DNA of 57,180 nt from positions 1 through 57,180 of the IMG/VR virus record IMGVR_UViG_3300030107_003246, one strand, 5' to 3'. The notes below the pieces were generated by a model, which worked only from the letters and a program-made list of their open reading frames with translations, was not told the DNA's origin and did not search any database. This DNA comes from a virus. This document shows positions 10,205 through 50,295 of this stretch, piece after piece (positions within the stretch are counted from its first letter, which is position 1; each line of letters opens with the position of its first letter). Both the position numbers and the translations under genes were made by a program.

Positions 10205-10215
10205 GGAGAAATAAA

Positions 10216-10512: not shown

Positions 10513-10524
10513 GTGAGGATTAGT

Positions 10525-31300: not shown

Positions 31301-34300
31301 TGGTGGAACAGGTCATACTGGTGGAACAGGTGGAACTGGAACTGGTGGTACAGGCGGAACTGGCGCTGCGTCTACAGCAACTGGCGGAACTGGTGGTACT
31401 GGAGAAACAGGTGGAACAGGCGGAACTGGTCAAACTGGCGGAACTGGTGGTACTGGACAAACAGGTGCTACAGGCGGAACTGGTGGAACAGGTGGAACTG
31501 GTACTGGTGGTACTGGTGGAGATGGTGCTACTGGCGGAACTGGCGGCACAGGTCAAACTGGCGGTACTGGTGGCACTGGACATACAGGCGGAACTGGCGG
31601 AACTGGTACTGGTGGTACTGGTGGTGTAGGAGCAACTGGCGGAACTGGTGGCACAGGTGGAACTGGAGAAACAGGCGCTACTGGCGGTACTGGTGGTACT
31701 GGTGGAACTGGCACAGGTGGAACTGGTGGAACTGGAGCAGCTAGCACAGCAACTGGTGGTACTGGTGGAACTGGACAAACTGGAGCAACTGGTGGAACAG
31801 GAGGAACTGGACAAACAGGTGGTACTGGTGGTACTGGACATACTGGCGGAACTGGTGGAACTGGTACTGGTGGAACTGGTGGTGTAGGTGCTACTGGTGG
31901 AACAGGCGGAACTGGCGGCACAGGAGAAACTGGAGCAACTGGTGGTACAGGTGGAACAGGCGGAACTGGCACTGGTGGTACTGGTGGTCAAGGTGCTACG
32001 GGCGGAACTGGTGGTACAGGTCACACAGGTGGAACTGGCGGTCAAGGAGCAACTGGTGGAACTGGTGGAACTGGTACAGGAGGAACTGGTGGTGTAGGTG
32101 CTACTGGTGGAACTGGCGGAACAGGTGGAACTGGAGAAACAGGCGCAACTGGCGGAACTGGTGGTACTGGTGGAACAGGAACTGGCGGAACTGGTGGTCA
32201 AGGTGCTACGGGCGGAACTGGTGGTACTGGACATACAGGTGGAACAGGTGGAACTGGAGCAGCTAGTACAGCAACTGGTGGAACAGGTGGAACTGGACAG
32301 ACAGGCGCAACTGGCGGAACTGGTGGTACTGGTGGAACAGGCACTGGTGGTACTGGTGGTACAGGTCACACAGGTGGTACTGGTGGAACTGGAGCGCAAG
32401 GAGCGCAAGGTGCAACTGGTGGTACTGGTGGAACAGGCGGAACTGGTACTGGTGGTACTGGTGGTGTAGGTGCTACAGGTGGTACTGGTGGAACTGGCGG
32501 TACAGGTGAAACTGGAGCAACTGGCGGAACTGGTGGTACTGGTGGAACTGGTACTGGTGGAACAGGTGGTCAAGGTGCTACAGGTGGTACTGGTGGAACT
32601 GGAGCAACTGGTGGAACAGGTGGAACTGGAGCAACTGGTGGAACAGGTGGAACTGGAACTGGTGGAACAGGTGGTACTGGAGCAGCTAGTACAGCGACTG
32701 GTGGTACTGGTGGAACTGGTCAAACTGGCGGAACAGGCGGAACTGGAGCGCAAGGAGCGCAAGGTGCAACTGGAGGAACTGGTGGTACTGGACATACAGG
32801 TGGAACAGGCGGAACTGGTACTGGTGGTACAGGCGGAACTGGAGCGCAAGGAGCGCAAGGTGCAACTGGTGGAACAGGTGGTACTGGACAAACTGGAGCA
32901 ACAGGTGGAACTGGTGGAACAGGTACTGGTGGAACTGGCGGAACTGGGGCGCAAGGAGCGCAAGGTGCAACTGGTGGAACTGGTGGCACAGGTCAAACTG
33001 GAGCAACTGGCGGAACTGGTGGAACTGGAACTGGTGGAACAGGTGGTCAAGGTGCGACTGGTGGAACTGGTGGTCAAGGTGCTACAGGCGGAACTGGTGG
33101 TACTGGAGCGCAGGGAGCGCAAGGTGCGACTGGTGGTACTGGTGGCACAGGTCAAACTGGAGCAACTGGTGGTACTGGTGGTACTGGTACTGGTGGTACA
33201 GGCGGAACTGGAGCGCAGGGAGCGCAAGGTGTAACTGGTGGTACAGGCGGAACTGGAGCGCAGGGAGCGCAAGGTGCAACTGGTGGAACAGGTGGTACTG
33301 GTCAAACAGGTGCTACGGGCGGAACTGGTGGAACAGGTACTGGTGGAACTGGTGGTACTGGAGCGCAAGGAGCGCAAGGTGTAACTGGCGGAACAGGTGG
33401 TACTGGAGCGCAGGGAGCGCAAGGTGTAACTGGCGGAACAGGTGGAACTGGAGAAACAGGTGGAACAGGCGGAACTGGAGCAGCTAGTACAGCAACTGGT
33501 GGAACAGGCGGAACTGGAGCAACTGGTGGTACTGGTGGAACTGGTACAGGAGGAACTGGTGGTACTGGAGCAGCTAGCACAGCAACTGGTGGAACAGGTG
33601 GTACTGGACAAACTGGAGCAACTGGTGGAACAGGTGGAACTGGTCAAACTGGCGGAACTGGTGGTACTGGAGCAGCTAGTACAGCAACTGGTGGAACAGG
33701 CGGAACTGGAGCGCAAGGTGCAACTGGTGGAACTGGTGGAACAGGTACTGGTGGAACAGGTGGAACTGGAGCAGCTAGCACAGCAACAGGCGGAACTGGT
33801 GGAACTGGTGGTACAGGTGCTGCGTCTACAGCAACTGGTGGAACTGGTGGTACTGGTGGTACTGGAGCAGCTAGTACAGCGACAGGCGGAACTGGTGGCA
33901 CTGGACAAACAGGTGCTACGGGCGGAACTGGTGGAACTGGTACTGGTGGAACTGGTGGTACTGGAGCAGCTAGTACAGAAACAGGTGGAACTGGTGGTAC
34001 TGGTGGAACTGGAGCAGCTAGTACAGAAACAGGTGGTACTGGTGGTACTGGTGGCACAGGCGGAACTGGTGGAACTGGAACTGGTGGAACTGGCGGTCAA
34101 GGAGCAGCTGGTTCAGATGGTGATGATGGAGCGCAAGGTGATCAAGGTGCTCAAGGTGCTCAAGGTGCTCAGGGTGCTCAAGGTGCTCAAGGTCCTCAAG
34201 GTAATCAAGGTCCTCAAGGTGGTACTGGTGGAACAGGCGCTACAGGTGGTACTGGAGCTACTGGAGCAACTGGTGGTACTGGTGGTACTGGTGGAACTGG

Positions 34301-34844
34301 AGCAGCTAGTACAGCGACTGGTGGAACAGGTGGAACTGGAGCAGCTAGCACAGCAACAGGTGGAACTGGTGGAACTGGTGGAACAGGTGGTGCTGGTACA
34401 TCCGATGGTGGTACTTTTGACTTAGGTGCTACTCAATGTGATGGATTATATGTAGGTAATGGTGCAACCAATTCATCAGCGGCTACAGATACTGTTAGAT
34501 GTGAGGGTGATGTTATTGCTTTCTACTCATCAGATGTAACCTTAAAAGAAAATATTATTCAAATTGAAGATCCTTTAGAAAAGCTGAAAAAGATAGGTGG
34601 TTATACTTATGATTGGAAGGATAGTTATATTGAATCACAAGGTGGTTTAGATGATAAATTTATGAGAAAAAGTGATGTTGGTGTTTTGGCTCACGAAATA
34701 AAAGAAATTATGCCAGAGGTTGTTGGTGAAAATAAAAGAACAGGAATATTGGGTGTTAAATATGAAAAAATAGTTCCGTTGTTAATTGAGTCTATCAAAA
34801 AATTAACAGAAGAATTAGAGGAGTTAAAAAATGGCAGTTCCTAG
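28314..34844 (+). CDS. Giant collagen-like Gly-X-Thr repeat fibre with S74-type C-terminus
   Basis: This is a 2176-aa protein with a short unique N-terminus (residues 1-65, containing [13 protein letters not shown] as in neighbouring fibres). About 1964 residues (66-2029) of Gly-X-Thr triplets follow, with X being Gly, Gln, His, Glu, Ala, Asp or Val. The C-terminal domain has S2073-D-x2-LKEN, YTYDWKD and a terminal helix ([12 protein letters not shown]), the S74 intramolecular chaperone pattern. Gly at every third position indicates a collagen triple helix or polyglycine-II helix. Proline is nearly absent. Two regular interruptions occur: Gly-Thr-Gly and GAASTATG. A short canonical Gly-Ala-Gln/Gly-Pro-Gln part sits near residue 1940. 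AGGAA precedes ATG. Confidence 0.85.
28509..34400 (+). repeat. 5.9-kb coding repeat of 9-nt Gly-X-Thr units
   Basis: The tandem 9-nt unit is GGN-NNN-AC(T/A), repeated several hundred times with synonymous variation, so the DNA is much more G/C-rich than its surroundings while the protein pattern is strict. Longer higher-order blocks (about 100-200 nt) recur, consistent with growth by duplication and unequal exchange. Glu-rich and Leu-rich open frames in the other five frames are by-products of the repeat. Confidence 0.95.
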
Positions 34845-35880
34845 CACAGGCACTCTTAGTATGGTGGGAATCTTTTCAGAAAAAAATGAAGATGATTATA
34901 GTGCATTTAATGAAGATGGTGAATCTAATATAAGTTTACTTGGTTTATCTAGAGATGGTACTGATGATAGCAGTGGCGGAGATTTAACTATAAATACAGC
35001 TGGTGGTCAAGGGGGAGATGGAGTGGCGCCATACGCTATGAGTGAGTTTTATGGTTACGATCACGATTTAAGTATATCATATGCAGCTTTTATTCTTGAT
35101 GATTGGAATGAGGGAACAATAAATGCTGGTAATGATGTCAATATGGATACAAGAGCAACATTCAATACAACCGATTTTGAAGATGGTGACCTATATGTAG
35201 ACCACGGAACTAATCAAACTACAAACACTCAAACTGATAGACCTTTATGGACAACATATGGTACACCATCAATAGTTTCAGATGAAATGAGATTTACTAA
35301 TACTGATGAGACATATGGTATGTTTTGTAAGACAACAGACCAAAATAATCCTGGTATTAATAATGTACCTACAACTCAATGTGTTGCGTGGAGATTTAGA
35401 TTTTTTATGAATACTACTAATAATAAAGATTCGAATTTGCACATAAATATGAATACCACCAGTCATACTAATCCAGCAGTAACTACAAATTCTTATCAAT
35501 TTAGAATTAGGGATAATTCAGACCCTGCTACTGGAAGAATAGATTTTTATAAAAGAATTTCTACAACATCAAATACTTTATTGGCTAGTAGTACTTCAGG
35601 TGCTTACACTTTGGGAACAACTCAAGATTTTATTTTATCTTGGCATAGAGCTGGTACTGGTCGTTCAGCTACATATACTTGGAAGGTTGGTATGGCACCA
35701 ACCACAACACCTAGTGCTAATATAATAAAACATAATAATGAACTTACTGTAAATGATGGCACATATTTTATTGCTAGAGGAATTTCAATGAGAGCAGCTA
35801 AAGCTATGAGTGTGCCAACATCAACTCATTATCACTCTTATGATATGCTTTCTTGTGTACAGATGGATGACCCATCATAA
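34831..35880 (+). CDS. Structural protein, probable adhesin/fibre tip
   Basis: This 349-aa protein overlaps the end of the giant fibre by 14 nt, with GAGGAG as ribosome binding site. The N-terminal 80 residues ([15 protein letters not shown] ... [12 protein letters not shown]) are a motif common to marine phage virion proteins. The rest is a beta-rich domain ([43 protein letters not shown]) with a concanavalin-like look. Adjacency and coupling to the collagen-like fibre suggest it is its tip or partner. No catalytic motif was seen. Confidence 0.6.
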
Positions 35881-36258: not shown

Positions 36259-37011
36259 ATGGGTTATAGTAATAGAGTAGAAAAAATAAAATACGATTTT
36301 GTATCACCATTCGGACCTAGCATAATGGTAGGAACTATTCCTGACAGCATATACGATGAGTTTAGTGAAATAATTCACAGAGTTATTGAAGAAAAACAAA
36401 GAAGTCACACAAAACAATTGTCAGGTAGATTAGATGAAGAATGGACTGTAGAGAGACAAGAATTATTTGAAACTAGAACTGAAGAGTTTATGACCTCTAT
36501 AGTTAATAAATATTGTACAGATTTATTGGAAAGACTTTATTCAGTTAAACATTTGTCTGAAGAAAATGACCGAAGTATTAAAGAACAAACAAATATTCCT
36601 ATAGAGGTTTTGAATACAGGTGGTTGGGTAAATAATATGGGAAGTTATGAATATAATCCAGTTCACTACCATCCGTTTTGTAATATAACGACTGTATTTT
36701 ATTTTAATAGTATTGATGGTGATTTTATAGACGAAATTATAGCACCTACAAATACGGAGAGAAATCATAATGCTCCACCATCAGAACCAGGAAATACAGA
36801 TGATGGTATGCTTGAAATAATTTACAACTCTTCACACTATTTTGAGTTGGGTACTATGAGGATAAAGCCAAAAGAAAAACAATTTTTAATTTTTCCAGCA
36901 CATTTATTACATCAGGTATATCCATTTATATCTAATAAAAAAAGAATTAGCGCTTCATTTAACTTTACAGTAAATGCTGATTCGCAAATTATAAATTATG
37001 GGGCGAGGTAA
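36259..37011 (+). CDS. 2-oxoglutarate/Fe(II) dioxygenase-like protein
   Basis: This 250-aa protein resembles the phage-type putative 2OG-Fe(II) oxygenase family (PF13759-like). It has a GGWVNNMGSYEYNPVHYHPF segment with His136 and His138, a beta core FYFNSIDG, an FLIFPAHLLHQVYPF segment with His218, and Arg229 in KKRISASFNF for 2-oxoglutarate. The iron-binding acid is not obvious and may be replaced or lie elsewhere. It should hydroxylate an unidentified protein, sugar or small molecule. It is the first gene of the cassette, lacks a ribosome binding site, and its stop overlaps the next start. An internal ATG (Met23) is a possible alternative start. Confidence 0.7.
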   Translation: MGYSNRVEKIKYDFVSPFGPSIMVGTIPDSIYDEFSEIIHRVIEEKQRSHTKQLSGRLDEEWTVERQELFETRTEEFMTSIVNKYCTDLLERLYSVKHLSEENDRSIKEQTNIPIEVLNTGGWVNNMGSYEYNPVHYHPFCNITTVFYFNSIDGDFIDEIIAPTNTERNHNAPPSEPGNTDDGMLEIIYNSSHYFELGTMRIKPKEKQFLIFPAHLLHQVYPFISNKKRISASFNFTVNADSQIINYGAR

Positions 37012-38489
37012 TGAACGATTCTTTATATAAAAATGGTTATGTTGTATTAGAAAACTTCTTTACACAAAGACAAATAGATTTTTTTATGAATCAAGTAGTT
37101 GAGGCAAAATTAAATAATGATTTGACTTTAGGAAAAGATGCTGATGAAAATACTGATTTACATCCTATGAGTTGGAATGTAAATTCACATCCTGTTTGGC
37201 AAAATACTTTATATAGCGTCTTACCTCAAGTTTCTAAAGTAACCGATGAGATATTAATTCCTACATATTCTTACCAAAGAACATACATAAAAGGTGCTGA
37301 AATGTCACATCATACAGATTGGCCTTGGTGTCAAATATCAATTACTGTAAATATTGGACAATCACATCCTTATCCATTATATATAACAGACTTTCAAACT
37401 AAAAAATATGTGAAGATAAATCAAAAACCAGGTGATGCTTTATTGTATATGGGATATAATACATCTCATCATAGAAAGAAATTTGAGGGAGATTTTTATT
37501 CTCAATTATTTCTACATTATATAATAGATAATAATGAGATGCAACAATATAAAAGATTTGATGAAGAAATTTTTAATTTTGAATTGAAAGAAAATATGGA
37601 AAAGGTTTTCTATACTGATGGTGTTAAGAAAATTAAAAATGAAAAATTTTCATATAATATGAAAGAGGAAGATAAAAATAAAATTGTTCCATATCAAGCA
37701 AAAATGATGAGAAGTACTAATAGAAATCCTAGAATAGATATAAATGATTTTGGTACTGATATTAGTCTAAGAGGTGGGCAATATAAAACTAAACAACTTT
37801 ATCATTTTATGGATAGTATACATCAGACTAAAAATTCTTTAGAACCTAAATTTTGTAATGACCTTATAGATTTATATGAGGATTATGCTGAAAGAGGTGA
37901 TGTGTTTCACGGAATGACTCATAGAGGACTTGACAACGATTACAAAAACACAGGTGAAATGAATTTAATGGATGTGCCAGAGGGTAAAGACTTTACAAAA
38001 ACATTACAGAGTGTATCAGATCATTGTATAATGATGTATATTAGAAAGTTTGGACTAATGGAACACTACGACCCATTTGAAATAACTGCTGGTGGTGCTT
38101 ACTATCCAATGTGGGAAGTACATAAATACGAAAAAGGTATAGGACATTATGAAGCTTGGCATACTGAGGGTGCTAATCTTTATGAATATGGAAATAGAAT
38201 TTTTGTTAGTATGTTTTATTTAAATGATGTAGAAGAGGGTGGTAGAACTGTATTTCCTTTTACAGGTAATGGTATAAAATGTGAAGAAGGAAAACATTTA
38301 GCTTTTCCTTGTTACTGGCCTTATGTACATTATGCACAAACACCATTATCTTCTGATAAATACATAATCACTACTTGGCTTCAGAGTGTATGGCCAGAAG
38401 AATATCAAGAAAATTTTGTAAGAACTGAGGGGCACGATAAAGACAAAGACATTAGAAAGACAAAATTTATTTGGGATAAGGGTGGATAA
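37011..38489 (+). CDS. Tandem 2OG-Fe(II) dioxygenase (prolyl-4-hydroxylase-like C-terminus)
   Basis: This 492-aa protein has two dioxygenase domains. The first (1-175) has H101-T-D103 and a later His pair at 153-154 in GYNTSHHRKKFEGD. The second (270-462) resembles P4Hc: WHTEGAN with H384-T-E386, YLNDVEEGGRTVFPF, His440 and Lys450 in SSDKYIITTWLQ. The HxE in place of HxD is a variant in the iron triad. Such enzymes hydroxylate Pro, Lys, Asp or other residues, or act on glycans and lipids. Coupling to glycosyltransferases and proximity to a collagen-like fibre make a virion target possible, though that fibre has almost no Pro. Confidence 0.75.
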   Translation: MNDSLYKNGYVVLENFFTQRQIDFFMNQVVEAKLNNDLTLGKDADENTDLHPMSWNVNSHPVWQNTLYSVLPQVSKVTDEILIPTYSYQRTYIKGAEMSHHTDWPWCQISITVNIGQSHPYPLYITDFQTKKYVKINQKPGDALLYMGYNTSHHRKKFEGDFYSQLFLHYIIDNNEMQQYKRFDEEIFNFELKENMEKVFYTDGVKKIKNEKFSYNMKEEDKNKIVPYQAKMMRSTNRNPRIDINDFGTDISLRGGQYKTKQLYHFMDSIHQTKNSLEPKFCNDLIDLYEDYAERGDVFHGMTHRGLDNDYKNTGEMNLMDVPEGKDFTKTLQSVSDHCIMMYIRKFGLMEHYDPFEITAGGAYYPMWEVHKYEKGIGHYEAWHTEGANLYEYGNRIFVSMFYLNDVEEGGRTVFPFTGNGIKCEEGKHLAFPCYWPYVHYAQTPLSSDKYIITTWLQSVWPEEYQENFVRTEGHDKDKDIRKTKFIWDKGG

Positions 38490-39042
38490 AAAATATAAAT
38501 TTACTGATGAATCTATATTAAAAGATAAAAGGATAGTAATGCACTCGTGGGAAACACCTGTGATGAAACAGATGGTTAGGTGGGTATGTGCTAATGGTGG
38601 TAATATTTTAGAAGTTGGTTTTGGTATGGGTATAGCATCTGATTTTATACAACAATATAATATAAGTTCTCATACTATCTGTGAAAACAATCCTGATGTT
38701 ATTGAGAGATTAAAAATTTGGGCTAAAGATAAACAAAATGTAAAAATTGTAGAGGGTGATTGGCATCGACACAGAGATAATTTTAAAAAATATGATGGTA
38801 TATTGTTTGATACATTTGACGATATGTATATAGAAAAATTTAAAAAGGAAACAGTTTACAAATTGTCAAAAGAAAAGACTAATTTTTGTATATGGGATAA
38901 TATGGAGAGTGAAACAGCGCCATATGAAAAATATCAAACGATGAAAATTAAAGTAAATAAATCATTTGAAGATAGTTGGAACTACCATCCAACAGATATT
39001 GTTTATGTACATAAAATTACTATAAATGGAGAAAGTAATTGA
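38482..39042 (+). CDS. SAM-dependent methyltransferase, guanidinoacetate methyltransferase-like
   Basis: This 186-aa protein has a GTG start inside the preceding gene. Motif I is ILEVGFGMGIAS (residues 42-53). HSWETPVMKQM (21-31) and DGILFDTF match the GAMT / arginine N-methyltransferase-2 family, which methylates guanidino groups. The sequence is shorter than typical GAMT but retains its core. In this cassette it could methylate a guanidino-bearing sugar or an Arg on a protein; the substrate is unknown. Its TGA stop overlaps the TTG start of the next gene. Confidence 0.7.
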   Translation: MDKKYKFTDESILKDKRIVMHSWETPVMKQMVRWVCANGGNILEVGFGMGIASDFIQQYNISSHTICENNPDVIERLKIWAKDKQNVKIVEGDWHRHRDNFKKYDGILFDTFDDMYIEKFKKETVYKLSKEKTNFCIWDNMESETAPYEKYQTMKIKVNKSFEDSWNYHPTDIVYVHKITINGESN

Positions 39043-42000
39043 TAGAGGTTGTAAAGGACATAGAAATAGAAGTAAAATTTGATGCAGGTCCCTTTGTACA
39101 AATTACTTCTAAAGCTAAAAAAGATACTGAATATAATGTAGAGTTTTGGGATTCGGATAGTGATTACTTAGTATTTGATTCTATGATAAAAATTAATACG
39201 TGGACAGCTTTTTCTAGAAAGTGGTATACTAATTGGCGAATAGTGGTGTATGAAGATTCTAAATTAATTTATCAATATCAATTAGATTTAAAAGGTAAAG
39301 ATGTTTTTATAAGATTAGCTTCAAATATGTTAGGAGATAATTTTGCTTGGATTTCATATGTAGAAGAATTTAGAAAAAAACACAATTGTAATATATTTTG
39401 TGGAACATTATTTCCAGAAATATTTGAAGAAACTTATGATTTTACTTTTTGGAAAGAAGGTTCAGAATGGCCATCAAAAGAATTTTACGCTACATATGAA
39501 GTTGGGGTTTTTGGTTATAAAAATGAAGAACCATTTTATGAATTTGATAATTCTTGTAACAAACAAAGTTTATCTGATATTTCTATGCAACAAGCGGCTA
39601 CTGATATATTAGGACTACCATATAAAGAAATTAAACCAAAACTCAACTTAGAAAAATTTGAAAGTAAAAATAAAATTGAAGGTAAATATGTTTGTATAGG
39701 AATACACGCTAGCGCACAACTTAAATATTGGAATTACGAAAATGGTTGGCAAAAAATAGTTGATTATTTTTTGAATATTGGATATAAAGTTATATATTTA
39801 TCTAGAGAGAAGTCAGGTTTTATGGGAAATAAAATTCCAACTGGCGTTATTGATAAATCAGGTGACTTGCCGTTAGAAGATAGAATTGGTGATTTAAAGA
39901 ACGCCGAACTATTTATAGGTACAAGTTCAGGATTAAGTTGGTTGGCTTGGGCTGTAGATATTCCAGTGGTTTTAATTCACGGACACAATCATTCTTGGTA
40001 TAATTTTGCTGATAAAACAAAACATATCAACTTAGAAAATGATGATAGTGTTTGTACAGGTTGTTGGCATACCGATGGATTTGCACCAGGAGATTGGTAT
40101 TTTTGTCCAAAACACAAAGATACAGATAGACAATTTGAATGTACTAAAAAAATAACACCTGAAATGGTAATAGAGGGAATAGAAGTTATGCTAAATGATA
40201 AACAAAAATCGATTAAAACTTTACAAAGTGCTATAAATTTAACAATGGATGTAACATCAGAAGTAGGAAAGATGTGGTTTTACAATACTACTAAATCTGA
40301 GTTTTACGTTAGAGTGGTAGATCCTTATTCTGATTTAACTTTATATACTTCAAAAATAACTTTTGAAGATAATACTGCTTTTTGGCTTCCATTTAAATAT
40401 GTTACTCCTTGGGAAAATTATTATTTAGATAAATTAAACGTTGAAGTTTATACAACCGACCAAACAAAAATTAAAACATTTGATGTCAAATTAAATGACA
40501 ATGTTGTTAATAATAAAGATGAATTTAAATATGTAACCAATAAATTTGATGTAAGTTGGGCAAACCACAAAGAGATATTTTATGCAGATGAGTATAAAGG
40601 TTTATTTGATTTAAACGAAGATTCTGTGGTTTTAGATTTAGGTGCACATATAGGAGTTTTTACGAGATGGGTTTCAAAACAAAATGTTAAAGTTTGTTAT
40701 TCATTAGAACCAAATCCAACTTTATGGAATGGACTTAATAAAACATTTGAAAATTCAGATAATGTTAAACTTTTAAATAATGCATTAGGAGAACTTACTG
40801 AAGATAGATGGTTAAAGTATCCACAATATTCTACATCAAATGGTTCTTTTTATATCAATGATTGGCCTGAAATAGAAGATTGGGTTAATCCTACTAATTA
40901 TAATAATCCATTTACATACGAAAGAGATATAGTGGTTTCTAATATCAAATGCCTGTCATTTGATGATTTTATTGAACAAAATAAAATAGAAAAAATAGAT
41001 GTTATAAAATGTGATGTAGAAGGCGCTGAGTATGAAATATTTCGTAATGCAAGTGAAGATTATTTAAAAGAAAATGTTAGTACAATTTTATTAGAATTTC
41101 ATCACAATAAAGATAGATTAAAACCCATATTAGATAAATTAATAAAATGTGGATTTTTAGTTAAATATTTAAAAGGTGATGCTGACGCATATGATGGAAC
41201 TATTTTATTTACAAAAAAGAAATCAAAACCTGTAAAGGTTGGTGAAGATAGATGGGTTATGGGTGCAAATATTGGACACGACTCTGGCGCTACATTGGTT
41301 AAAAATGGTAAAATATTCGTTTCAGTAAATTCAGAAAGAATTACTAGAATAAAGCACGATGAAGCTAATGATGATTTTCCTTGGAAAGCTATGGACTATT
41401 GTTTAGATTATGCTGGGATAAAGAAAGATGATTTAGAAAGAATTGTTTGGAATGGTATAGGATTACCTCCCGAATTAGCTATAGATCCAAATGGACTTTG
41501 GGCTAGTAGATTAAAAGAGAATGGTTATAATTTTTCTGAAGATAGATTAAATTATTGTACACATCATTTAGCACACGCTTATTCAGCACATTACTCAAGT
41601 GGATTTGAAGAATCAGTTTCAATCGTAGTCGATGCTGGTGGAGAAACTAATTATAGAGAAGTAATTGATAAATTTTTTACTAATAAAATAGCACATATGA
41701 AAAAATATCCAATAGAAAAATGTGTGGAAGCTAGTAGTATTTATGAAATTAAAAAGGGTGTATTCACTAAAATATATTCTGCTTTCAAACCTTTTCCCGA
41801 AGCTGATTTATGGCCGACATTAGGACAATCAATTGGAGAATTTTATGCTTTAGGTTGTAACTATATAGGTATGGATGGTTTATATGATGCTGGAAAACTT
41901 ATGGGATTAGCTTCATATGGTAGACCTGAAGAATCTAAAAAAAGATTTGATGAACCAGTTGTGTATTTAGATCCAGATCCTAAATCAGGAGATTACTTTA

Positions 42001-43034
42001 TAAGAGTGCATCACGCTGTTCCGAGAGAAGAACAAACTTCAGAAACTCTTATGTATATAGATACACCGAGACCAATATATTGGAATTCTAATATATCAGG
42101 TGAAGATTTTCAATCGAAAGCCGATTGGGCTTGGATGGTTCAACATCAATTCGAAAAAATGATATTGTTTTTAGCTAAGAAAGCTTCAATGAATTCTAAT
42201 GTTAAATACTTAACAGGTTCTGGTGGTTGCTTTCTTAATTCAATTGCTAATCAAAAAATAGTTGATTTAGGTTTATTTGATGACCACTTTTATGTACCAG
42301 CATCGGATGATGGTGGCATATCAATTGGAACTGCCTTTTATGGATATTATAATTTTCATCCTGATAAAGGTAAGGTAAATTTAAATAATAAAGAAGAGAC
42401 TGTTTTTATGGGTAAGGATTACTCTGAGGAGGAAATAATGAGTGATATAGAAAATTTTGATAAAATAATTTATGAAAAAATTGAGGATGAAGAGGAGTTA
42501 GCTAAAAAAGTTGCTTCTTTTGTACACGATGGAAAGGTTGTTGGTTTCTTTCAAGGTGGTAGTGAAATGGGGCCTAGAGCATTAGGACATCGTAGTATAT
42601 TAGGAGACCCAACTCATCCCGATATGCAAGATATAATCAATAATAGGGTAAAACATAGAGAGTGGTACAGACCTTTTGCTCCTGCTTGTACTGTAGAAGA
42701 TGCTCATAAATATTTCACACATACTACAGAAAGCCCTTATATGTTGTTAATAGCTCAAGTAAAAGAAGAATTCAAAGAGAAGTTGCCATCTATAACACAC
42801 GTAGATGGAACTGCTCGATTACAAACTGTAAGGAGAGAAACTAATCAGAGGTACTATGATGTGATAAAAGAGTTTGGAAAACTATCGGGTATTCCAGTAG
42901 TTTTGAATACTTCTTTTAATGAAGCTGGTGAACCTATAGTAGAAACTCCTGCTGATGCTATAAGATGTTTTCTTAAAAATGATATTGATTATTTAGTTGT
43001 AGAAAATTATTTAATAACACCAATCAGAGACTAA
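39039..43034 (+). CDS. Trifunctional fusion: BAHT-type heptosyltransferase, FkbM methyltransferase, NodU/CmcH carbamoyltransferase
   Basis: This 1331-aa protein starts at TTG, with GGAG 7 nt upstream and TTGA overlapping the previous stop. Residues 1-385 resemble autotransporter heptosyltransferases (TibC-like): LGDNFAWISYVEEFRKKH (98-115), TSSGLSWLAWAVDIPVV (295-311) and four Cys (339, 342, 356, 368) as in the iron-binding site of TibC. A beta-sandwich-like linker (395-500) follows. Residues 525-730 are an FkbM methyltransferase (VLDLGAHIGVF at 531-541, IKCDVEGAEYEIF at 656-668). Residues 738-1331 are a full O-carbamoyltransferase with metal-binding HHLAH (843-847) and GPRALGHRS (from 1178). 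One polypeptide thus could add, methylate and carbamoylate a sugar. Confidence 0.85.
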   Translation: MIEVVKDIEIEVKFDAGPFVQITSKAKKDTEYNVEFWDSDSDYLVFDSMIKINTWTAFSRKWYTNWRIVVYEDSKLIYQYQLDLKGKDVFIRLASNMLGDNFAWISYVEEFRKKHNCNIFCGTLFPEIFEETYDFTFWKEGSEWPSKEFYATYEVGVFGYKNEEPFYEFDNSCNKQSLSDISMQQAATDILGLPYKEIKPKLNLEKFESKNKIEGKYVCIGIHASAQLKYWNYENGWQKIVDYFLNIGYKVIYLSREKSGFMGNKIPTGVIDKSGDLPLEDRIGDLKNAELFIGTSSGLSWLAWAVDIPVVLIHGHNHSWYNFADKTKHINLENDDSVCTGCWHTDGFAPGDWYFCPKHKDTDRQFECTKKITPEMVIEGIEVMLNDKQKSIKTLQSAINLTMDVTSEVGKMWFYNTTKSEFYVRVVDPYSDLTLYTSKITFEDNTAFWLPFKYVTPWENYYLDKLNVEVYTTDQTKIKTFDVKLNDNVVNNKDEFKYVTNKFDVSWANHKEIFYADEYKGLFDLNEDSVVLDLGAHIGVFTRWVSKQNVKVCYSLEPNPTLWNGLNKTFENSDNVKLLNNALGELTEDRWLKYPQYSTSNGSFYINDWPEIEDWVNPTNYNNPFTYERDIVVSNIKCLSFDDFIEQNKIEKIDVIKCDVEGAEYEIFRNASEDYLKENVSTILLEFHHNKDRLKPILDKLIKCGFLVKYLKGDADAYDGTILFTKKKSKPVKVGEDRWVMGANIGHDSGATLVKNGKIFVSVNSERITRIKHDEANDDFPWKAMDYCLDYAGIKKDDLERIVWNGIGLPPELAIDPNGLWASRLKENGYNFSEDRLNYCTHHLAHAYSAHYSSGFEESVSIVVDAGGETNYREVIDKFFTNKIAHMKKYPIEKCVEASSIYEIKKGVFTKIYSAFKPFPEADLWPTLGQSIGEFYALGCNYIGMDGLYDAGKLMGLASYGRPEESKKRFDEPVVYLDPDPKSGDYFIRVHHAVPREEQTSETLMYIDTPRPIYWNSNISGEDFQSKADWAWMVQHQFEKMILFLAKKASMNSNVKYLTGSGGCFLNSIANQKIVDLGLFDDHFYVPASDDGGISIGTAFYGYYNFHPDKGKVNLNNKEETVFMGKDYSEEEIMSDIENFDKIIYEKIEDEEELAKKVASFVHDGKVVGFFQGGSEMGPRALGHRSILGDPTHPDMQDIINNRVKHREWYRPFAPACTVEDAHKYFTHTTESPYMLLIAQVKEEFKEKLPSITHVDGTARLQTVRRETNQRYYDVIKEFGKLSGIPVVLNTSFNEAGEPIVETPADAIRCFLKNDIDYLVVENYLITPIRD

Positions 43035-43037
43035 TAA

Positions 43038-44327
43038 ATGACTTGGGTTTTAGGTGTAAACATAGGGCATCAATCTGGCGCTACTTTAGTAAGAAGTGGT
43101 AAGGTATTTGTTTCTATAAATTTAGAAAGAATTACTAGAATTAAAAATGACAATGGCTATCCACCGCCAGAAGAAAATAATTGGGATTATTCATTAATAG
43201 AATTTCCTTGGAAAGCTATGGACTATTGTTTAGATTATGCTAACATACAGAAAACGGATTTAGATAGAATTGTTTGGAATGGTATTGGTTTAACACCAGA
43301 CCAACAAATAAGTGTAGATGGATTTTTAGTTCAGAAGTTGAAAAAAAATGGATACGATTTGCCAAATGATAGATTAAATTATTGTACACATCATTTAGCA
43401 CACGCATACTCAACTCATTACTCAAGTGGTTTTGATGAATCTATTATTTTAGTAGCTGACAATGCTGGTGAAATGAATTACAAACAAACAGTAGATGATT
43501 TTGTAGAAAATAAAATAGCACATATCCAAAAAACAAGACTTGGTGAGTGTGTTGAAGCTACTAGTATTTACGAAGTTAAGAAAGGTGTATTTAAAAGAAT
43601 ATACTCTCGCTACAAAGCAGCTTACTCATATTTTAATACAGTAGGAAAACACAAAGATGGGTCTGGTTTTAGCACTAGATATAGGTTAGGAAAGTCACTT
43701 GGAGAGTGGTATTATGATAATTGTATTCACATAGGTTTGACTGGAGATGATGCTGGAAAACTTATGGGATTAGCTCCTTTTGGAGATGAAGAAAAAGTTA
43801 GAGAAAAGTATAAAGAACCAATGGTATACATTGATAAAGATCCTAAAGCTGGTGAATACTTAATAAGAGCTCACGAATATCTTCCATATGAAGAGCAAGA
43901 AGAATTGGATGAAATGTATATAAATACACCAATACCATCTTATATGAGTGATACTATATATGAAAATGATTTTCAATCTAAAGCAGATCATGCTTGGTTT
44001 GTACAAAATCAATTTGAAAGAGTTGTTGAATTTTTAGCTAAAAAGTGTTCAATGATTTCAGATGTCAAAAACTTTTGTGCTGCAGGTGGCAGTTTCTTAA
44101 ATTCTGTGGCAAATCAAAAAATAATAGATTTGGATATTTTTGATAATCACTTTTTTGTTCCAGCAGCTGATGATGGTGGTATAAGTTTAGGATGTGCTTT
44201 TTATGGTTACTTTAACTTTCATAGTAAAAAAGGAATTTTCAACTTATCTAATAGAGAGGATAGTGCTTTTATGGGAAAAAAATATAATGAAAAAGAAATA
44301 TTAGGAGCTCTTAATGAATATAGCTAA
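43038..44327 (+). CDS. Truncated carbamoyltransferase paralogue (N-terminal domain only)
   Basis: This 429-aa protein is closely similar along its length to residues 738-1150 of the preceding fusion: GVNIGHQSGATLV, KAMDYCLDYA, RLNYCTHHLAHAYSTHYSSGF and AAGGSFLNSVANQKI. It ends at FMGKKYNEKEILGALNEYS, before the family's C-terminal domain with the GPRALG motif. It is therefore a tandem duplicate that lost the YrdC-like half that makes carbamoyl-adenylate. It could act in trans with a neighbour's C-domain, serve as a regulator, or be decaying. A 14-nt overlap with the next gene may mark where the deletion joined them. Confidence 0.8.
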   Translation: MTWVLGVNIGHQSGATLVRSGKVFVSINLERITRIKNDNGYPPPEENNWDYSLIEFPWKAMDYCLDYANIQKTDLDRIVWNGIGLTPDQQISVDGFLVQKLKKNGYDLPNDRLNYCTHHLAHAYSTHYSSGFDESIILVADNAGEMNYKQTVDDFVENKIAHIQKTRLGECVEATSIYEVKKGVFKRIYSRYKAAYSYFNTVGKHKDGSGFSTRYRLGKSLGEWYYDNCIHIGLTGDDAGKLMGLAPFGDEEKVREKYKEPMVYIDKDPKAGEYLIRAHEYLPYEEQEELDEMYINTPIPSYMSDTIYENDFQSKADHAWFVQNQFERVVEFLAKKCSMISDVKNFCAAGGSFLNSVANQKIIDLDIFDNHFFVPAADDGGISLGCAFYGYFNFHSKKGIFNLSNREDSAFMGKKYNEKEILGALNEYS

Positions 44328-46260
44328 AAAGCCACAAACCGATGTGGATATTCTTCATTATATTAATCAGACAAAAGAATTTTGGAAAGTAACAGATTTT
44401 CAAAAAGAGATATTAGATTTTGAGGGTTTCACACCACATATTCCTGATGACCTTAATTTTTACATAGGACATCCTGAAATGGCAGTAGATTACAGATCTG
44501 ATCGTGGTACTTCTTTTGGAGATATTATTCCATATACTAGATTGCCTGAGTTATTAAAAATATATTATAGAGGGTGTAAAGTATTTATACCAAAATGGTT
44601 CATTGATGTTTTTCAGCACAATCCATATATTGATGGAACACACGACTTTGATTATAAGTGGGGTTCTATGGGAACTTTTGGAACAACGATTCAGCGATGT
44701 ACTAATGTTTGGGGATTGAGAACAGAAGATTACACACCAAAATTATTTGCTTCACCGAATATTAAAAAAAGAAAAAACACTATATTGTTTACATTAAATA
44801 GTAAAACTGGTGGAAGATTTGGAGATAATGATTTATTAGAAGAAGTAGTTGAACATTTAGGAAAAAAATATCACTGTGTACAATTAGGTTTGTCAGATGA
44901 CTATTTAGTCAAATCAGCACATAAACACGTTTTAAATATTTCTAGAAATAAATTAATTGACTTTGTTGCAGAATTTCCTATATACATAGGCGCACAGAGT
45001 AGTATATATCATATAGCAAAGGGTTTGGGTTTAAAGACAATTGGGATATTGCCAGAAAAACAAAGACTAAAAGAAGCAGGTAGTGTACAAACTATATTTG
45101 GTGGATTTCATCCAGACTATGTACAATTACCTTTGCTTACAGTAACCAATACTATGGAAGTTGTACCTTGTGGAGAAGAACATTTTGAAAGAGCTAAATA
45201 TTTTCAACCAATGTTTCCCAATCAACCGCCAAATGGGGGCGCAGGTGAAAACTCTATAGCAGGATATAATGACACTATAGCACATTTAGGTTGGTTATAT
45301 CCCGATACACCACATTTAACTATGAGCCCTTTGGGAACTGAAAGATGCCCTACGCTATCTAAAGAAACTATTGATATGGCTTTAAATGATGAGATATATC
45401 CATTCAATGATGATAGATTGTGGGATTATTACAAACATAAAGAGTTGTGGACTGCACCAAATACTGATCCTCTAAATATTGCAAAAGGCTTTTCAACAGT
45501 GCTTAAAAAAGAAAAACCTAAAATAATATCATCTCATATACCTAGAACAGGTGGAAATTTATTTAGAAATGTTTTATACGATTTATATGGTGTTCGTGAT
45601 TGTTTAGAAAATGTAAAAGATAAAATATATTATGATGAAAAGTATTTTACACGTAAAGGTGATATGGTTATGTACGAAGATTATGGAGATAAGCCAGAAT
45701 ATAATTATTATGAAGTCAATCCCACAGTGGATGTTCCACAATACGAATGTATACACGGGCATTTTAGATTAGGTAAATATAAACAATTATTTAATTCTCA
45801 TAAATTAATTGTTTGGCTTAGAAATCCTATAGATAGATTAATATCACACTATTACTTTTTAAAAAATTCACCACTACATATCGATCCTATACAAAACAAA
45901 CTGATAGCAGAAGAATTAGACTTATATCAATTTTGTGAGTTAGAAACTTCTAAAAATATCTATAAAAAGTATTTTCAAAAATATTCTAAAAATATAGACT
46001 TCATAGGAATTACTGAAAGTTATAATGATAGTTTGAGAAAGTTTGAAAAAATGTTTGATGTTGAAGTAGGAGATACATATCCATATTTTGATATAGAATC
46101 AGGCGATTCAGATTTTAAAAACAATATACAAAATTCAAAGTGGGCTGTATATAAAAAAGAATATGATAAAATAGATAGAAACTTTATAAAAAAATTAAAT
46201 CAAGATGACATAGAAATATACAATCAATCAGTAAGAATAAATTCGGAATATAAATTATGA
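44314..46260 (+). CDS. GT9-like glycosyltransferase fused to sulfotransferase
   Basis: This 648-aa protein has AGGAG 9 nt before ATG. Residues 45-310 resemble heptosyltransferase/ADP-heptose GT9 folds (GTSFGDIIPYTRLPELLK, GAQSSIYHIAKGLGLKTIGI). Residues 400-648 form a sulfotransferase: ISSHIPRTGGNLFRNV (405-420) as the PAPS 5'-phosphosulfate loop and VWLRNPIDRLISHYYF as the 3'-phosphate motif. The fusion could transfer a sugar and then sulfate it, or act as two enzymes on one glycan. A sulfated phage glycan would be unusual. It overlaps the following gene by ATGA. Donor sugar and acceptor are unknown. Confidence 0.75.
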   Translation: MNIAKKPQTDVDILHYINQTKEFWKVTDFQKEILDFEGFTPHIPDDLNFYIGHPEMAVDYRSDRGTSFGDIIPYTRLPELLKIYYRGCKVFIPKWFIDVFQHNPYIDGTHDFDYKWGSMGTFGTTIQRCTNVWGLRTEDYTPKLFASPNIKKRKNTILFTLNSKTGGRFGDNDLLEEVVEHLGKKYHCVQLGLSDDYLVKSAHKHVLNISRNKLIDFVAEFPIYIGAQSSIYHIAKGLGLKTIGILPEKQRLKEAGSVQTIFGGFHPDYVQLPLLTVTNTMEVVPCGEEHFERAKYFQPMFPNQPPNGGAGENSIAGYNDTIAHLGWLYPDTPHLTMSPLGTERCPTLSKETIDMALNDEIYPFNDDRLWDYYKHKELWTAPNTDPLNIAKGFSTVLKKEKPKIISSHIPRTGGNLFRNVLYDLYGVRDCLENVKDKIYYDEKYFTRKGDMVMYEDYGDKPEYNYYEVNPTVDVPQYECIHGHFRLGKYKQLFNSHKLIVWLRNPIDRLISHYYFLKNSPLHIDPIQNKLIAEELDLYQFCELETSKNIYKKYFQKYSKNIDFIGITESYNDSLRKFEKMFDVEVGDTYPYFDIESGDSDFKNNIQNSKWAVYKKEYDKIDRNFIKKLNQDDIEIYNQSVRINSEYKL

Positions 46261-47870
46261 GTAAGGTATTTGGTATAATAGGTCACGCTCACGATTCTAC
46301 AGTTGCTTATATAGAAGATGGTGAAATAAAAGTGGTTATAGAAGAGGAGAGAATTCGTAAGATTAAATCTTGGGCACTTAGTGGGGTTTATCCGTGGTTT
46401 GCTATGGATACAATAGAAAATGATATGGGATATAAATTAGAGGATTCGGACTATATTTGTATAGCAGAAGTAGCAGAGCCAGATTTAGATAGATATAAAT
46501 CAGAAGAGATGAGAAGAAAGGTGGTTACATATCCACATCATTTACTTCACGCAGTTGGCGCATATTATACATCAGGTTTTAAAGAAAAGACTTTAGTTAT
46601 TACTCACGATGGAAGTGGTTTTAAAACTGTTGGTAGGGTTTATTTAGGTTATGATGATAAATTACATTTAGTACATAAACAACCAAAAGAAAAATCAGCG
46701 TCTATTGGACAATATTTTGGTCGTTGTACAACTCAGTTTGCACCAAAAGGAGCTGTGTGGCATTCTCTTAAAGATGAGGGAAAGCTTATGGGTATGGCTG
46801 GTCACGGAAAATATAATGAAGAGATGTATAATAAATTAAAACAATTATTACACTACACCAATGATTTGAATTTTGGTCCTTGTGGAAATTGGAATAGAGT
46901 AGAAACATTTTTTGAATCACTTCGTGAAGAGGAATCTGATTGGAGTGATAATTTCGAACTAAGAGCCGAGTGGGCTTTCAATGTACAAAAGTTATTAGAA
47001 GATGTTTTTTTAGAATATTTAGAAGATTTACATAAATTTTATCCTGAATATAAAAGGGTGGCAGTTGCTGGTGGCATTTTTGCTAATGTAAAATTAAATC
47101 AAAAAATAAATGAATTGGATTGGGTTGATGAAGTTTATGTGTATCCTGCTATGAGTGATTCTGGACTAGCATTAGCAGCTGCTATAATGAAATCAGTAGA
47201 ATTAGGTGAGTGGGAAAATAAAAGATTTGAAAATGTATTTTTAGGAAACGATTATACAAAAGACGAAATAAAAAAAGAAGAAAAAGAATGGAATTTCAAT
47301 AAAGAAAAATTTGACTCTAAAAAAGTTGCTAAACTATTAAATGATGGAAATATTATTGGTTGCTTTCAAGGAAAAATGGAATATGGACCTAGAGCATTGG
47401 GTTCAAGAAGTATTTTAGTTAGAGCTACCGATAAAGAGATGCACGAAACTTTAAATAATAGATTAGAAAGACACGAAATAATGCCATTTGCTCCAATTAT
47501 TTTAGGAGAGAAAGTAGATGATGTTTGTAAAAATACAAAATCAAAAATGACTGCAGAGTTTATGACAATGTGTTATACAGTAAAAGATGAGTGGGTTGAT
47601 AAAATACCAGCAGTAGTTCATAGAGTGGATAATACACTAAGACCTCAATTAGTTTTTAAAGAAAGAAATAAATTCTTTCATAGTATTTTAAATGAATATT
47701 ACAAAATATCTAAAATACCAGTTCTCTTAAACACATCTTTTAATGGTCACGGACAACCGATTATATATGATTTGAATCAGCCATTTGAACATTTAGAAAA
47801 AGGAACTGTTGATTATTTAGTTTTGGAAGATAATTTATATTGGAGTAAAAATGAGAAGAAGGCCGATTAG
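46257..47870 (+). CDS. O-carbamoyltransferase, NodU/CmcH family
   Basis: This 537-aa protein is complete, with both domains. The N-terminal Kae1-like part has HHLLHAVGAYYTSGF (metal His) and GMAGHGKYNEE. The C-terminal YrdC-like domain has FQGKMEYGPRALGSRSIL and IPVLLNTSFNGHGQPI. The family moves a carbamoyl group from carbamoyl phosphate, through carbamoyl-adenylate, to hydroxyls of sugars. It differs clearly from the fused copy at 39039, so it was probably acquired or diverged separately and may carbamoylate another position. It is coupled at both ends. Confidence 0.88.
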   Translation: MSKVFGIIGHAHDSTVAYIEDGEIKVVIEEERIRKIKSWALSGVYPWFAMDTIENDMGYKLEDSDYICIAEVAEPDLDRYKSEEMRRKVVTYPHHLLHAVGAYYTSGFKEKTLVITHDGSGFKTVGRVYLGYDDKLHLVHKQPKEKSASIGQYFGRCTTQFAPKGAVWHSLKDEGKLMGMAGHGKYNEEMYNKLKQLLHYTNDLNFGPCGNWNRVETFFESLREEESDWSDNFELRAEWAFNVQKLLEDVFLEYLEDLHKFYPEYKRVAVAGGIFANVKLNQKINELDWVDEVYVYPAMSDSGLALAAAIMKSVELGEWENKRFENVFLGNDYTKDEIKKEEKEWNFNKEKFDSKKVAKLLNDGNIIGCFQGKMEYGPRALGSRSILVRATDKEMHETLNNRLERHEIMPFAPIILGEKVDDVCKNTKSKMTAEFMTMCYTVKDEWVDKIPAVVHRVDNTLRPQLVFKERNKFFHSILNEYYKISKIPVLLNTSFNGHGQPIIYDLNQPFEHLEKGTVDYLVLEDNLYWSKNEKKAD

Positions 47871-50295
47871 AGCTCCTTGGGAGGGCGAATTTATGAAACA
47901 GAGACAAGACCATATTAAAATAATTAAAGATCCTATTATTAGATGTATACACACTAATGATGAATATTTTACCTTATATGTAGAACAATATATAAAGAAT
48001 CAAAAAGGACAATTGTGTTTTTGGAATTCATATAGTCTAAATGGTATGAATGCATGGCATGGAAATTGGGTTCAATGGCACGCTGATTGGGTTTTTAAAG
48101 TGTATGGGTTAAATAAAGGTAAATATACTTTTTTAAAAAGATATGATTATGATTTAAAAGGTAAAAATGTACAAATAGTTTTAGATACAAAAGATTGGGA
48201 AGAAGCTGGTGAGTGGTTAGGTTATTGTAAGAAATTTCAAAAAGAAACTGGTTGTAAATTATTCATCGCATCAGATGAGTTTAATAGAGGACATTTTTCC
48301 AATCAAAATACAGACCAGATTATAAAATTTACAGAAACTTATAATAAAGGTGTAGAGACAATTGATGGCATAGGTGTACCACCTGATGAATATAGCAATT
48401 CACCGATACACGATTTATATGCTAGGTATGATATAGGTAGGTTTCCTTTGACTACTAGAAAGAAGTATGGATTTGAAAGAGACCAATGGAGAGTTGATGA
48501 TAAAGATAAAGAAAGTTCACATAACTCTATTACTTTTAAACAACAGAATAAATTACCTTTAGGTTTAATTGAAATGATGAATTTTACATTCGATGGTTGG
48601 AAAAATCCTGTGACTATTTCACAATCACAATTAGATGAATATTATGGTATAGTTGATAAAGATGTAGAAATAGAGGAAGCAACATCAGCTGACATAGTAA
48701 AACAAATACTTGGATTCAAAACAAAATATTGGGATGGTGTAGATTTAAAAAAAGAAGGACATAGAAAAATAAAAGGAGAATTTACTCAACACGAATTCTT
48801 TTCAGGTGGATTTCATAGTTGGGGTAAAGGAGAAAATGCCACACGAGTTGCTATACAAATATTGAGTTACAATAAACCTTACTATTTAAAAAGAACTTTA
48901 GATTCTTTAATGGAAGTTATAGAACACAATGATAAAATTTGTGTATTGGAACAATCTGATAAACCTGATTTGAAAGAACAAGCAATTGCTGTTTGTAAAG
49001 AATATGATAATATAACTATAATTTCTATTGATGAAAATTTAGGACAAAGAGGTGCAACAAATAAAGTTTGGGAAAGTGGATTTTTTGATAATTGCCAATA
49101 CATTATGTTTTCAGACCACGATAATGAATATCACGAACCATTAACTATACTTTGTGATAAATTAGATGAAGAAAATAATGTGACGATAGCAACATTTTAT
49201 AATTCACCCGAACACGACATTACACACAAAGATGGTAATTGGTTATACAAACAGACTGCTAGAGCTGGTAATATGATGATGAGGCGTGATGAATTAATTC
49301 AAATGCTACCAATTGATGTAGACTTATATTCAGAGACAAAAACAGATGAGGATTACTGTGCTTGGTTTGCAGGTTTAGATTGGTGGGTACAGTGGTGGCA
49401 CGATGAAAGTGGTGGTAAACAAAATAGAGATAATTTTGTAGCTTGTTATATGGGTGGTTGTACACATTTTGGAGTAGAATCAACTTGGCAAGGTAAATAT
49501 GATGATGAAATTCCACGACACGAATCACTTTTGATGAAAGATAAAACTATGGAACAGATAGTAAAAAAATATCCACCGAGAAGAGAGTATAATCACGGAA
49601 AAGAGTGGTGGTATGAAAAAGAAAAGCTTGATTTAAAAGATGTTACATTGGTAATAGTGGATTGTATAGATTATGAAAGAGCTTTAAGAGCTGTCAATAT
49701 TTCTACTATATATGCCAAATTTGGAGATGTTAAATTTTTTACATCTATGGATAAAGATAATGATGATATAGTAAAAATACCACATTGTCAATCTAATTTT
49801 GATGTTATACATTTTATGTGGAAGAAAATGAATTCATATATCAAAACTAAGTATATTTTACATATAGAATTTGATGGTTTTATTTTAAATCCAAAAGCTT
49901 GGAAAGATGAGTTTTTAAATTATGATTATATAGGTGCACCGTGGTGGTATGAAGAAAATAATGTTGGAAATGCTGGATTTAGTTTAATAAGTAAAAAAAT
50001 GTTAGACTTTATACAAAAAGATGATGTTATGGACTTATATCCATCAGATGATGACGCTATATGTAGAATTAATAGAAAATATTTAGAGGAAAACGGAATA
50101 AAATTTGCACCTGAAGAGTTAGCAGCTGATTTCTCTTTTGAGGCTAATGAAAAGCGTGGTGATAAGTGGGATGGACAGTTTGGATTTCACAGTCCATCAA
50201 TGGAAAATGAAAGACACCCTAATAAATTTAGAGGTGGTATAACAAATATTGATAATTGGCCTGATAAAGATAAGATTAGATGGCCGAATGGTTAA
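47851..50295 (+). CDS. GT2-family glycosyltransferase fused to DUF5672 domain, with BAHT-like N-terminal module
   Basis: This 814-aa protein overlaps the previous gene by 20 nt. ATG 47893, after GGAGGGC, is an equally good start. Residues 30-160 resemble the N-terminal module of the 39039 heptosyltransferase (YDLKGKNVQIVL, GEWLGYCKKFQKETGCKLF). Residues 331-560 are a GT-A fold GT2-like transferase (IQILSYNKPYYLKRTL, SDHDNEY at 421-427 as the metal/donor site). Residues 595-790 match DUF5672 (DYIGAPWWYEENNVGNAGFSLIS, 689-708), associated with glycosyltransferases. The likely role is adding sugars to the same glycan. It ends the cassette; a promoter-like element follows. Confidence 0.8.
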   Translation: MRRRPIRAPWEGEFMKQRQDHIKIIKDPIIRCIHTNDEYFTLYVEQYIKNQKGQLCFWNSYSLNGMNAWHGNWVQWHADWVFKVYGLNKGKYTFLKRYDYDLKGKNVQIVLDTKDWEEAGEWLGYCKKFQKETGCKLFIASDEFNRGHFSNQNTDQIIKFTETYNKGVETIDGIGVPPDEYSNSPIHDLYARYDIGRFPLTTRKKYGFERDQWRVDDKDKESSHNSITFKQQNKLPLGLIEMMNFTFDGWKNPVTISQSQLDEYYGIVDKDVEIEEATSADIVKQILGFKTKYWDGVDLKKEGHRKIKGEFTQHEFFSGGFHSWGKGENATRVAIQILSYNKPYYLKRTLDSLMEVIEHNDKICVLEQSDKPDLKEQAIAVCKEYDNITIISIDENLGQRGATNKVWESGFFDNCQYIMFSDHDNEYHEPLTILCDKLDEENNVTIATFYNSPEHDITHKDGNWLYKQTARAGNMMMRRDELIQMLPIDVDLYSETKTDEDYCAWFAGLDWWVQWWHDESGGKQNRDNFVACYMGGCTHFGVESTWQGKYDDEIPRHESLLMKDKTMEQIVKKYPPRREYNHGKEWWYEKEKLDLKDVTLVIVDCIDYERALRAVNISTIYAKFGDVKFFTSMDKDNDDIVKIPHCQSNFDVIHFMWKKMNSYIKTKYILHIEFDGFILNPKAWKDEFLNYDYIGAPWWYEENNVGNAGFSLISKKMLDFIQKDDVMDLYPSDDDAICRINRKYLEENGIKFAPEELAADFSFEANEKRGDKWDGQFGFHSPSMENERHPNKFRGGITNIDNWPDKDKIRWPNG

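Follow-up and report, generated by a model that had tools for sequence, protein, structure and literature searches.

A virus genome fragment of 57,180 nucleotides (IMG/VR record IMGVR_UViG_3300030107_003246, positions 1 to 57,180; hereafter the window) encodes a single 1331-aa polypeptide that joins a glycosyltransferase, a methyltransferase and a carbamoyltransferase, and this gene raises the question of which molecule such a protein would modify. From sequence comparison, a predicted structure and gene neighborhoods, we consider it probable that the fusion, as a soluble multi-enzyme protein, adds sugars to the collagen-like fiber of its own phage within the infected cell.

The fusion gene and its cassette

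The window is a fragment of a T4-like tailed phage genome, with genes for terminase, portal, capsid, tube and sheath, and its closest relatives by terminase are Microcystis phage Mel-JY01 (55%) and Flavobacterium immuto phages (54%). Between the long fiber gene and the sheath gene lies a cassette of plus-strand genes (36259–50295), with the fusion gene at its center. It starts with two 2OG-Fe(II) oxygenases, the first assigned to PF13759 (36259–37011) and the second identified with Pfam (37011–38489). The latter carries a C-terminal prolyl-4-hydroxylase-like domain, weakly matching a bacterial collagen prolyl-4-hydroxylase (3ITQ, E 5e-4), despite the near-absence of proline in the fiber tract described below. 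A small SAM methyltransferase-like protein (38482–39042; family scores under the cut-offs) precedes the fusion (39039–43034), which is followed by a tandem paralog of the fused carbamoyltransferase consisting of the N domain only (43038–44327; 56% identity). This paralog may require carbamoyl-AMP from the C domain of a partner; in three related contigs (L001–L003), an ORF equal in length to its 429-aa product comes after the fusion. The remaining genes encode a protein with an unknown N-terminal half and a sulfotransferase domain (44314–46260; PF03567), a second complete carbamoyltransferase (46257–47870; Pfam), and a GT2 and DUF5672 protein (47851–50295) in which aa 96–142 weakly resemble TibC. 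The idea of a TibC barrel as a common targeting module was dropped, as an HMM search for a shared barrel in the other cassette enzymes gave no significant match.

The fusion gene is a single unbroken ORF on the plus strand. Its TTG start overlaps the 3′ end of the preceding gene and is preceded, a few bases upstream, by GGAGAA (39028–39033). NCBIfam, Pfam and PHROGs agree on the three enzymes. A BAHT unit (bacterial autotransporter heptosyltransferase, the TibC/AAH family) comes first, and after an all-beta linker follow the FkbM methyltransferase and the complete carbamoyltransferase. With the window's own contig included, the fusion occurs in four IMG/VR contigs: it is full length in L002 (83% identity, with the same TTG start) and partial in L001 (99%) and L003 (85%). 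Because the fusion was found again in these three further contigs, an assembly artifact is ruled out. In the comparison of the window with L002, dN is lower than dS in every domain, with dN/dS ranging from ~0.04 in the carbamoyl C domain to 0.37 in the barrel and 0.5 in a short spacer; judged by these ratios, every domain of the fusion is under purifying selection. The earlier note on this DNA had proposed three enzymes in one polypeptide, which the family models above their cut-offs and the conservation in L001–L003 bear out, and had considered their order undescribed. The latter also holds for all collections searched, since none of the records of 50,697 phages and 72,556 plasmids reached 80% coverage of the fusion query and IMG/VR yielded the four contigs only.

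The FkbM domain (aa 530–707; 40626–41159) is complete, as had been supposed: TIGR01444 matches aa 530–688 with 76.7 bits (cut-off 37.7), Pfam Methyltransf_21 matches aa 533–707 above its cut-off (PF05050, 58.2 bits), and the SAM motif LDLGAHIGVF and the motif KCDVEGAEYE are both present. The preceding all-beta linker (aa 402–485; 40242–40493; seven predicted strands) is possibly a second TibC-like barrel, a reading to which its strand pattern lends appeal, with a Foldseek E of 0.025 to TibC that is no better than that to GH2 sandwiches and an E of 3.9 against the phage BAHT N-barrel HMM. An hhalign comparison on this point is weak, the motif search having caught near-identical sequences only.

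The carbamoyltransferase consists of an N domain (aa 739–1150; 41253–42488) with HHxxH and VDAGGE motifs, in which Pfam Carbam_trans_N matches aa 837–1099 above its cut-off (97.8 bits), and a C domain (aa 1160–1326; 42516–43016), matched by Carbam_trans_C, likewise above cut-off, with 240.3 bits; the C-terminal region of the fusion is 96% identical to that of L002. The enzyme had been described as a complete NodU-type carbamoyltransferase. Both domains are indeed there, but the NodU equivalog model NF041651 gave 151.8 bits against a cut-off of 1000, and by these scores the enzyme is NodU/TobZ-like in a wide sense and not NodU proper. It shares the two-domain layout of Nol-like, NodU, TobZ and GdmN O-carbamoyltransferases (414 bits to phrog_1601; PDB relatives include GdmN, VtdB-type and TobZ entries). 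Unlike the matched records, which lack such a fusion, the window's copy is the C-terminal part of a longer protein.

The BAHT unit and its phage relatives

The BAHT unit comprises an N-terminal beta-barrel (aa 1–86; 39039–39296; eight predicted strands; E 1.8e-24 with the phage BAHT N-barrel HMM) and a catalytic domain (aa 87–392; 39297–40214). TIGR04414 (hepto_Aah_TibC) matches aa 11–382 with 278.1 bits against a curated equivalog cut-off of 200 (E 1e-82). In the alignment to the TibC structure (4RAP), the catalytic base and donor-site residues are in place: TibC Asp110, Lys230, Arg286 and Trp305 correspond to D100, K229, R282 and W301 of the fusion, and Thr226 is conservatively changed to S225. 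The position of TibC Pro300 and AAH Ser294, which is tied to heptose stereoselectivity (PMC4358343), is occupied by S296 in the fusion, as in AAH, from which broad use of ADP-heptose isomers would be a guess. Four cysteines (40053–40142; C339-x2-C342-x13-C356-x11-C368) align with the TibC iron ligands C339/C342/C358/C370 (PMC4358343), and these cysteines, together with D100, K229 and W301, are invariant in 27 phage BAHTs. An AlphaFold model of aa 1–740, built with 27 aligned proteins from the window and the viral loci, has a pLDDT of 75.8 and a TM score of 0.80, by target length, to TibC, with ~30% identity in the structural alignment.

Thus, the TibC-like glycosyltransferase with four cysteines in the iron pattern is confirmed, and the earlier label heptosyltransferase stands in the sense of a protein O-heptosyltransferase. 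As an LPS heptosyltransferase it was dropped, because the RfaQ and heptosyltransferase I models scored far under their cut-offs and the TM score to WaaC was lower than that to TibC. The fusion shares with TibC and AAH the barrel, the GT-B domain, the iron finger and the catalytic residues, but differs from them in that it is phage-borne, is joined to methyl- and carbamoyltransferases and adjoins a Gly-X-Thr fiber, and in that no autotransporter was found among the window proteins scanned. BAHT enzymes characteristically form a ring-shaped dodecamer, which C-terminal fusions may alter.

With a profile from a six-row BAHT alignment, we confirmed BAHTs in at least 522 viral contigs, of which 80 loci were kept for study. 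Alongside stand-alone units of ~385–405 aa, the phage fusions include GT4-BAHT, GT4-BAHT-FkbM, GT25-GT4-BAHT-FkbM, GT4-MT-BAHT, GT4-MT24-BAHT-MT-GT2 and sulfotransferase-BAHT, so the pairing of BAHT with FkbM is recurrent. Phage multi-enzyme proteins such as A0A6J5SVC1 ("Glycosyltransferase Aah/TibC") and WWT39291.1 of Mel-JY01 likewise hold a BAHT inside a long multi-domain protein, but their partners are GT4, FkbM, other methyltransferases, GT2 and sulfotransferase, and none has a carbamoyltransferase. Among the BAHT loci examined, a carbamoyltransferase is joined to BAHT-FkbM in the window clade only; unfused carbamoyltransferases adjoin two other BAHT lineages. The exact domain order, although new in the collections searched, is less important than first thought because phage BAHT fusions form a large family to which the protein belongs; it is a new variant inside the BAHT family, and the broader association of BAHTs with fibers is the more interesting result.

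At 11 loci (L026, L027, L028, L059, L060, L067, L081, L083, L090, L092 and L096), a second BAHT-like ORF of ~310–324 aa, lacking the N-barrel, adjoins the longer BAHT fusion on the opposite strand. In L005, a sulfotransferase-BAHT fusion is followed, two genes further downstream, by a T4-like portal gene interrupted by an intein (9952–12378; PF14890).

Ser/Thr-rich collagen-like fibers near phage BAHTs

The candidate substrate is a 2176-aa fiber encoded on the plus strand a few genes upstream of the fusion (28314–34844), with a 1959-aa Gly-X-Thr tract and a C-terminal S74 chaperone. The tract contains 1050 Gly, 601 Thr, 519 G-X-T triplets and 2 Pro. Gly occupies every third position, with 230 triplets in runs of at least 15 (longest exact run 27) and slips between the runs. 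Both Gly and Thr are encoded by mixed codons, and the repeat is therefore no simple DNA repeat. For such a Gly-Gly-Thr fiber, a polyglycine-II bundle is a possible alternative to the triple helix. Antisense to the tract runs an open frame of 1864 aa (28506–34100, minus strand), best seen as a by-product of repeat composition; in Mel-JY01, an isolated phage that has a BAHT, an antisense frame across the GSS/GTS repeat frame is annotated as a gene (L007 739–2298, minus strand).

We defined a Gly-X-Y run as at least 10 triplets and called a tract Ser/Thr-rich when Ser+Thr made up at least 0.40 of its residues. Within ~10 kb, a Gly-X-Y run was present at 33 of 78 BAHT loci versus 1 of 80 random viral loci and a Ser/Thr-rich tract at 27 of 78 versus 0 of 80, the random loci having been picked by an arbitrary 14-mer irrespective of position near tail genes and the sequence searched amounting to 1.19 Mb and 0.68 Mb, respectively. 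As many BAHT loci are near duplicates, we clustered the lineages at 70% identity; 18 of the 30 phage lineages have a proline-poor, Ser/Thr-rich Gly-X-Y fiber gene within 10 kb (median distance from tract to BAHT 3.3 kb, closest 25–30 bp). BAHTs from cells, namely those of Acetobacter, Gluconobacter and Selenomonadales, lack a tract of this kind.

The association was also examined in reverse, with 80 viral contigs drawn by a Gly-every-third DNA pattern blind to X and Y and scanned in full for TIGR04414. A convincing BAHT was present in three of them, all within the 8–9 most Ser/Thr-rich contigs (P = 0.0007–0.001); the 0.40 cut-off had been set after the BAHT-linked tracts were viewed and before this second set was scanned. 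By the raw measure, the window's fiber (~0.3) falls under the cut-off because Gly also occupies X, and we therefore introduced the Ser/Thr fraction of non-Gly tract residues. This fraction is 0.69 in the window's fiber, and its median is 0.74 in BAHT-linked clusters versus 0.26 in the 80 arbitrary tracts (P = 1e-6). Collagens of E. coli prophages are rich in proline and charged residues (PMC3368898), so the Ser/Thr-rich, proline-free type is distinct.

The association of BAHTs with these fibers is supported by gene linkage but is not exclusive. No Ser/Thr-rich tract was found near 12 of the 30 lineages, four of which have ~10 kb or more of sequence on both sides. Conversely, no BAHT was found in five or six (depending on the cut-off) of the Ser/Thr-rich arbitrary contigs or in contigs G110 and G112 of relatives of the window phage, which encode a Ser/Thr-rich fiber. 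In G110, the sheath gene directly follows the fiber gene, without a cassette. Since these contigs are fragments, the BAHT could be encoded elsewhere or another enzyme could be used. A GGT/GAT-type tract like that of the window also occurs without a BAHT in a 221-kb contig (L134). A TerL-based matched control, made up mostly of short contigs, included a 216-kb contig with neither BAHT nor tract.

Relatives of the window phage encode GSS/GTS/GTD fibers of >2200 aa (L490 8313–16157 and L492 7993–14865), and in L490 the sheath gene directly follows the fiber gene, with no glycan cassette. Two contigs binned as archaea (L356, Thermoplasmatales; L372, Nitrosotalea) also encode long BAHT proteins close to a Ser/Thr-rich Gly-X-Y tract, possibly reflecting a virus or mis-binning.

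The pairing of BAHT and fiber, usual in related viruses, points to self-glycosylation of the fibers. The earlier proposal of a phage BAHT acting on its own Thr-rich fiber gains partial support from gene linkage in both directions and from the anatomy of the window, with the catalysis itself predicted from sequence. A literature search, which did not extend to many subscription papers or to any bioRxiv preprints, returned no paper tying BAHT or FkbM-carbamoyltransferase fusions to phage fibers.

Substrate, mechanism and significance

The fusion might instead glycosylate another virion protein, the collagen-like fiber being merely a neighbor; candidates in the window are an S74 fiber (3224–5530), a 1053-aa protein (47–3208), the product of 34831–35880, the sheath and the capsid. 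At the loci inspected, BAHTs that lack a nearby Gly-X-Y tract lie downstream of large tail fiber or tip proteins with ~20% Ser+Thr, some with S74-like ends, and glycosylation of capsid and tail-tube proteins is known in mycobacteriophages (Freeman 2023, as cited in PMC12619734). The latter case resembles ours in that a phage's own virion proteins are glycosylated, but it concerns capsid and tail-tube C-termini, and neither a BAHT nor a collagen-like fiber is reported for it in that citation. We regard a different virion substrate as unlikely, because it would leave the Ser/Thr shift and proline loss of Gly-X-Y tracts in BAHT phages unexplained.

It is quite improbable that the cassette alters host surface glycans, whether to exclude superinfecting phages or to convert the serotype, or that it assembles a free glycan. 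Cyanophages commonly encode FkbM and Nol-like carbamoyltransferases, which are filed as auxiliary genes; however, the BAHT unit belongs to the iron-finger protein O-heptosyltransferases and not to the LPS heptosyltransferases, and the cassette is located among late structural genes, with the fiber on one side and the sheath on the other.

The supply of donor sugar bears on whether the BAHT unit serves as a scaffold without catalysis or takes a different nucleotide sugar, with the fusion methylating and carbamoylating glycans made by another enzyme. ADP-heptose genes were not found in most BAHT phage contigs searched: matches to rfaE domain II fell short of the cut-off and could represent other nucleotidyltransferases, and GmhA (sedoheptulose-7-phosphate isomerase; 251 bits) was found in one huge BAHT phage only, LR756504, ~27 kb from its BAHT (L397 6072–6650; LR756504.1 430182–430640). 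We therefore rejected ADP-heptose synthesis by the phage. A scaffold or other-sugar role would fit this scarcity and the Ser in place of TibC Thr226, but the invariant D100, K229, W301 and cysteines of the phage BAHTs and the GmhA of LR756504 argue against it, and we consider it still less probable than action on host glycans. In the window, a 1263-aa protein (5575–9366) in which a kinase-like P-loop domain is joined to one resembling NMN adenylyltransferase was rejected as HldE-like and is NadR-like instead. Finally, viral glycosyltransferases do act on DNA (Pyle 2024, as cited in PMC12619734), but hypermodification of phage DNA with sugars by the cassette is the least credible reading, given that no base-modification genes were found among the identified window genes, that the BAHT unit resembles the protein-modifying TibC in fold and iron finger, and that BAHT linkage is to fiber genes.

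For the favored reading, glycosylation of the collagen-like fiber, the steps would be as follows. The BAHT unit would act in the cytoplasm, prior to assembly, and transfer heptose from host ADP-heptose onto the Thr, or Ser, residues of the Gly-X-Thr tract. The FkbM domain would then methylate a hydroxyl of the fiber-attached sugar and the carbamoyltransferase would add a carbamoyl group to it, whereas the neighboring sulfotransferase, GT2 and second carbamoyltransferase could further decorate or extend the sugar. Fusing the enzymes would keep the activities close to one another on a substrate that offers hundreds of sites. The phage would probably gain a stiff, soluble and protease-resistant fiber that does not rely on proline for stability and that has a variable sugar surface. 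The known acceptors of TibC are beta-helical autotransporters with a fold unlike that of a Gly-X-Y fiber, which counts against the fiber as the BAHT substrate, as does the scarcity of ADP-heptose genes in these phages. Glycosylated Thr, in turn, is a recognized means of stabilizing collagen (PMC3368898). In Clostridioides difficile, the gene directly upstream of bclA3 encodes SgtA, which glycosylates Thr in the BclA3 collagen repeat (PMC7157674). By analogy, this dedicated, adjacent glycosyltransferase sets a working precedent for placing the gene of an enzyme beside that of its collagen-like substrate, although it differs in the sugar (GlcNAc, not heptose), the enzyme, the location (spore surface) and the proline-rich Gly-Pro-Thr triplets.

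More tentatively, tailed phages in general, represented by several hundred contigs with a BAHT and by many lineages, may have proline-free glyco-collagen fibers in which O-heptosylation of Ser/Thr in the Gly-X-Y repeats replaces proline or hydroxyproline as the source of stability and swapped BAHT-fused enzyme modules diversify the sugar coat. The fusion and the fiber form a directly testable enzyme–substrate pair in place of a loose guess. If the proposed activity is correct, it would offer an enzyme kit for producing glycosylated collagen-like proteins and a possible answer to how proline-free collagen-like phage fibers stay together. The BAHT family, known from hyperglycosylation of bacterial adhesins, would then be a widespread phage tool for collagen-like tail fibers, and virion glycosylation would join the factors that shape phage adsorption and recognition.
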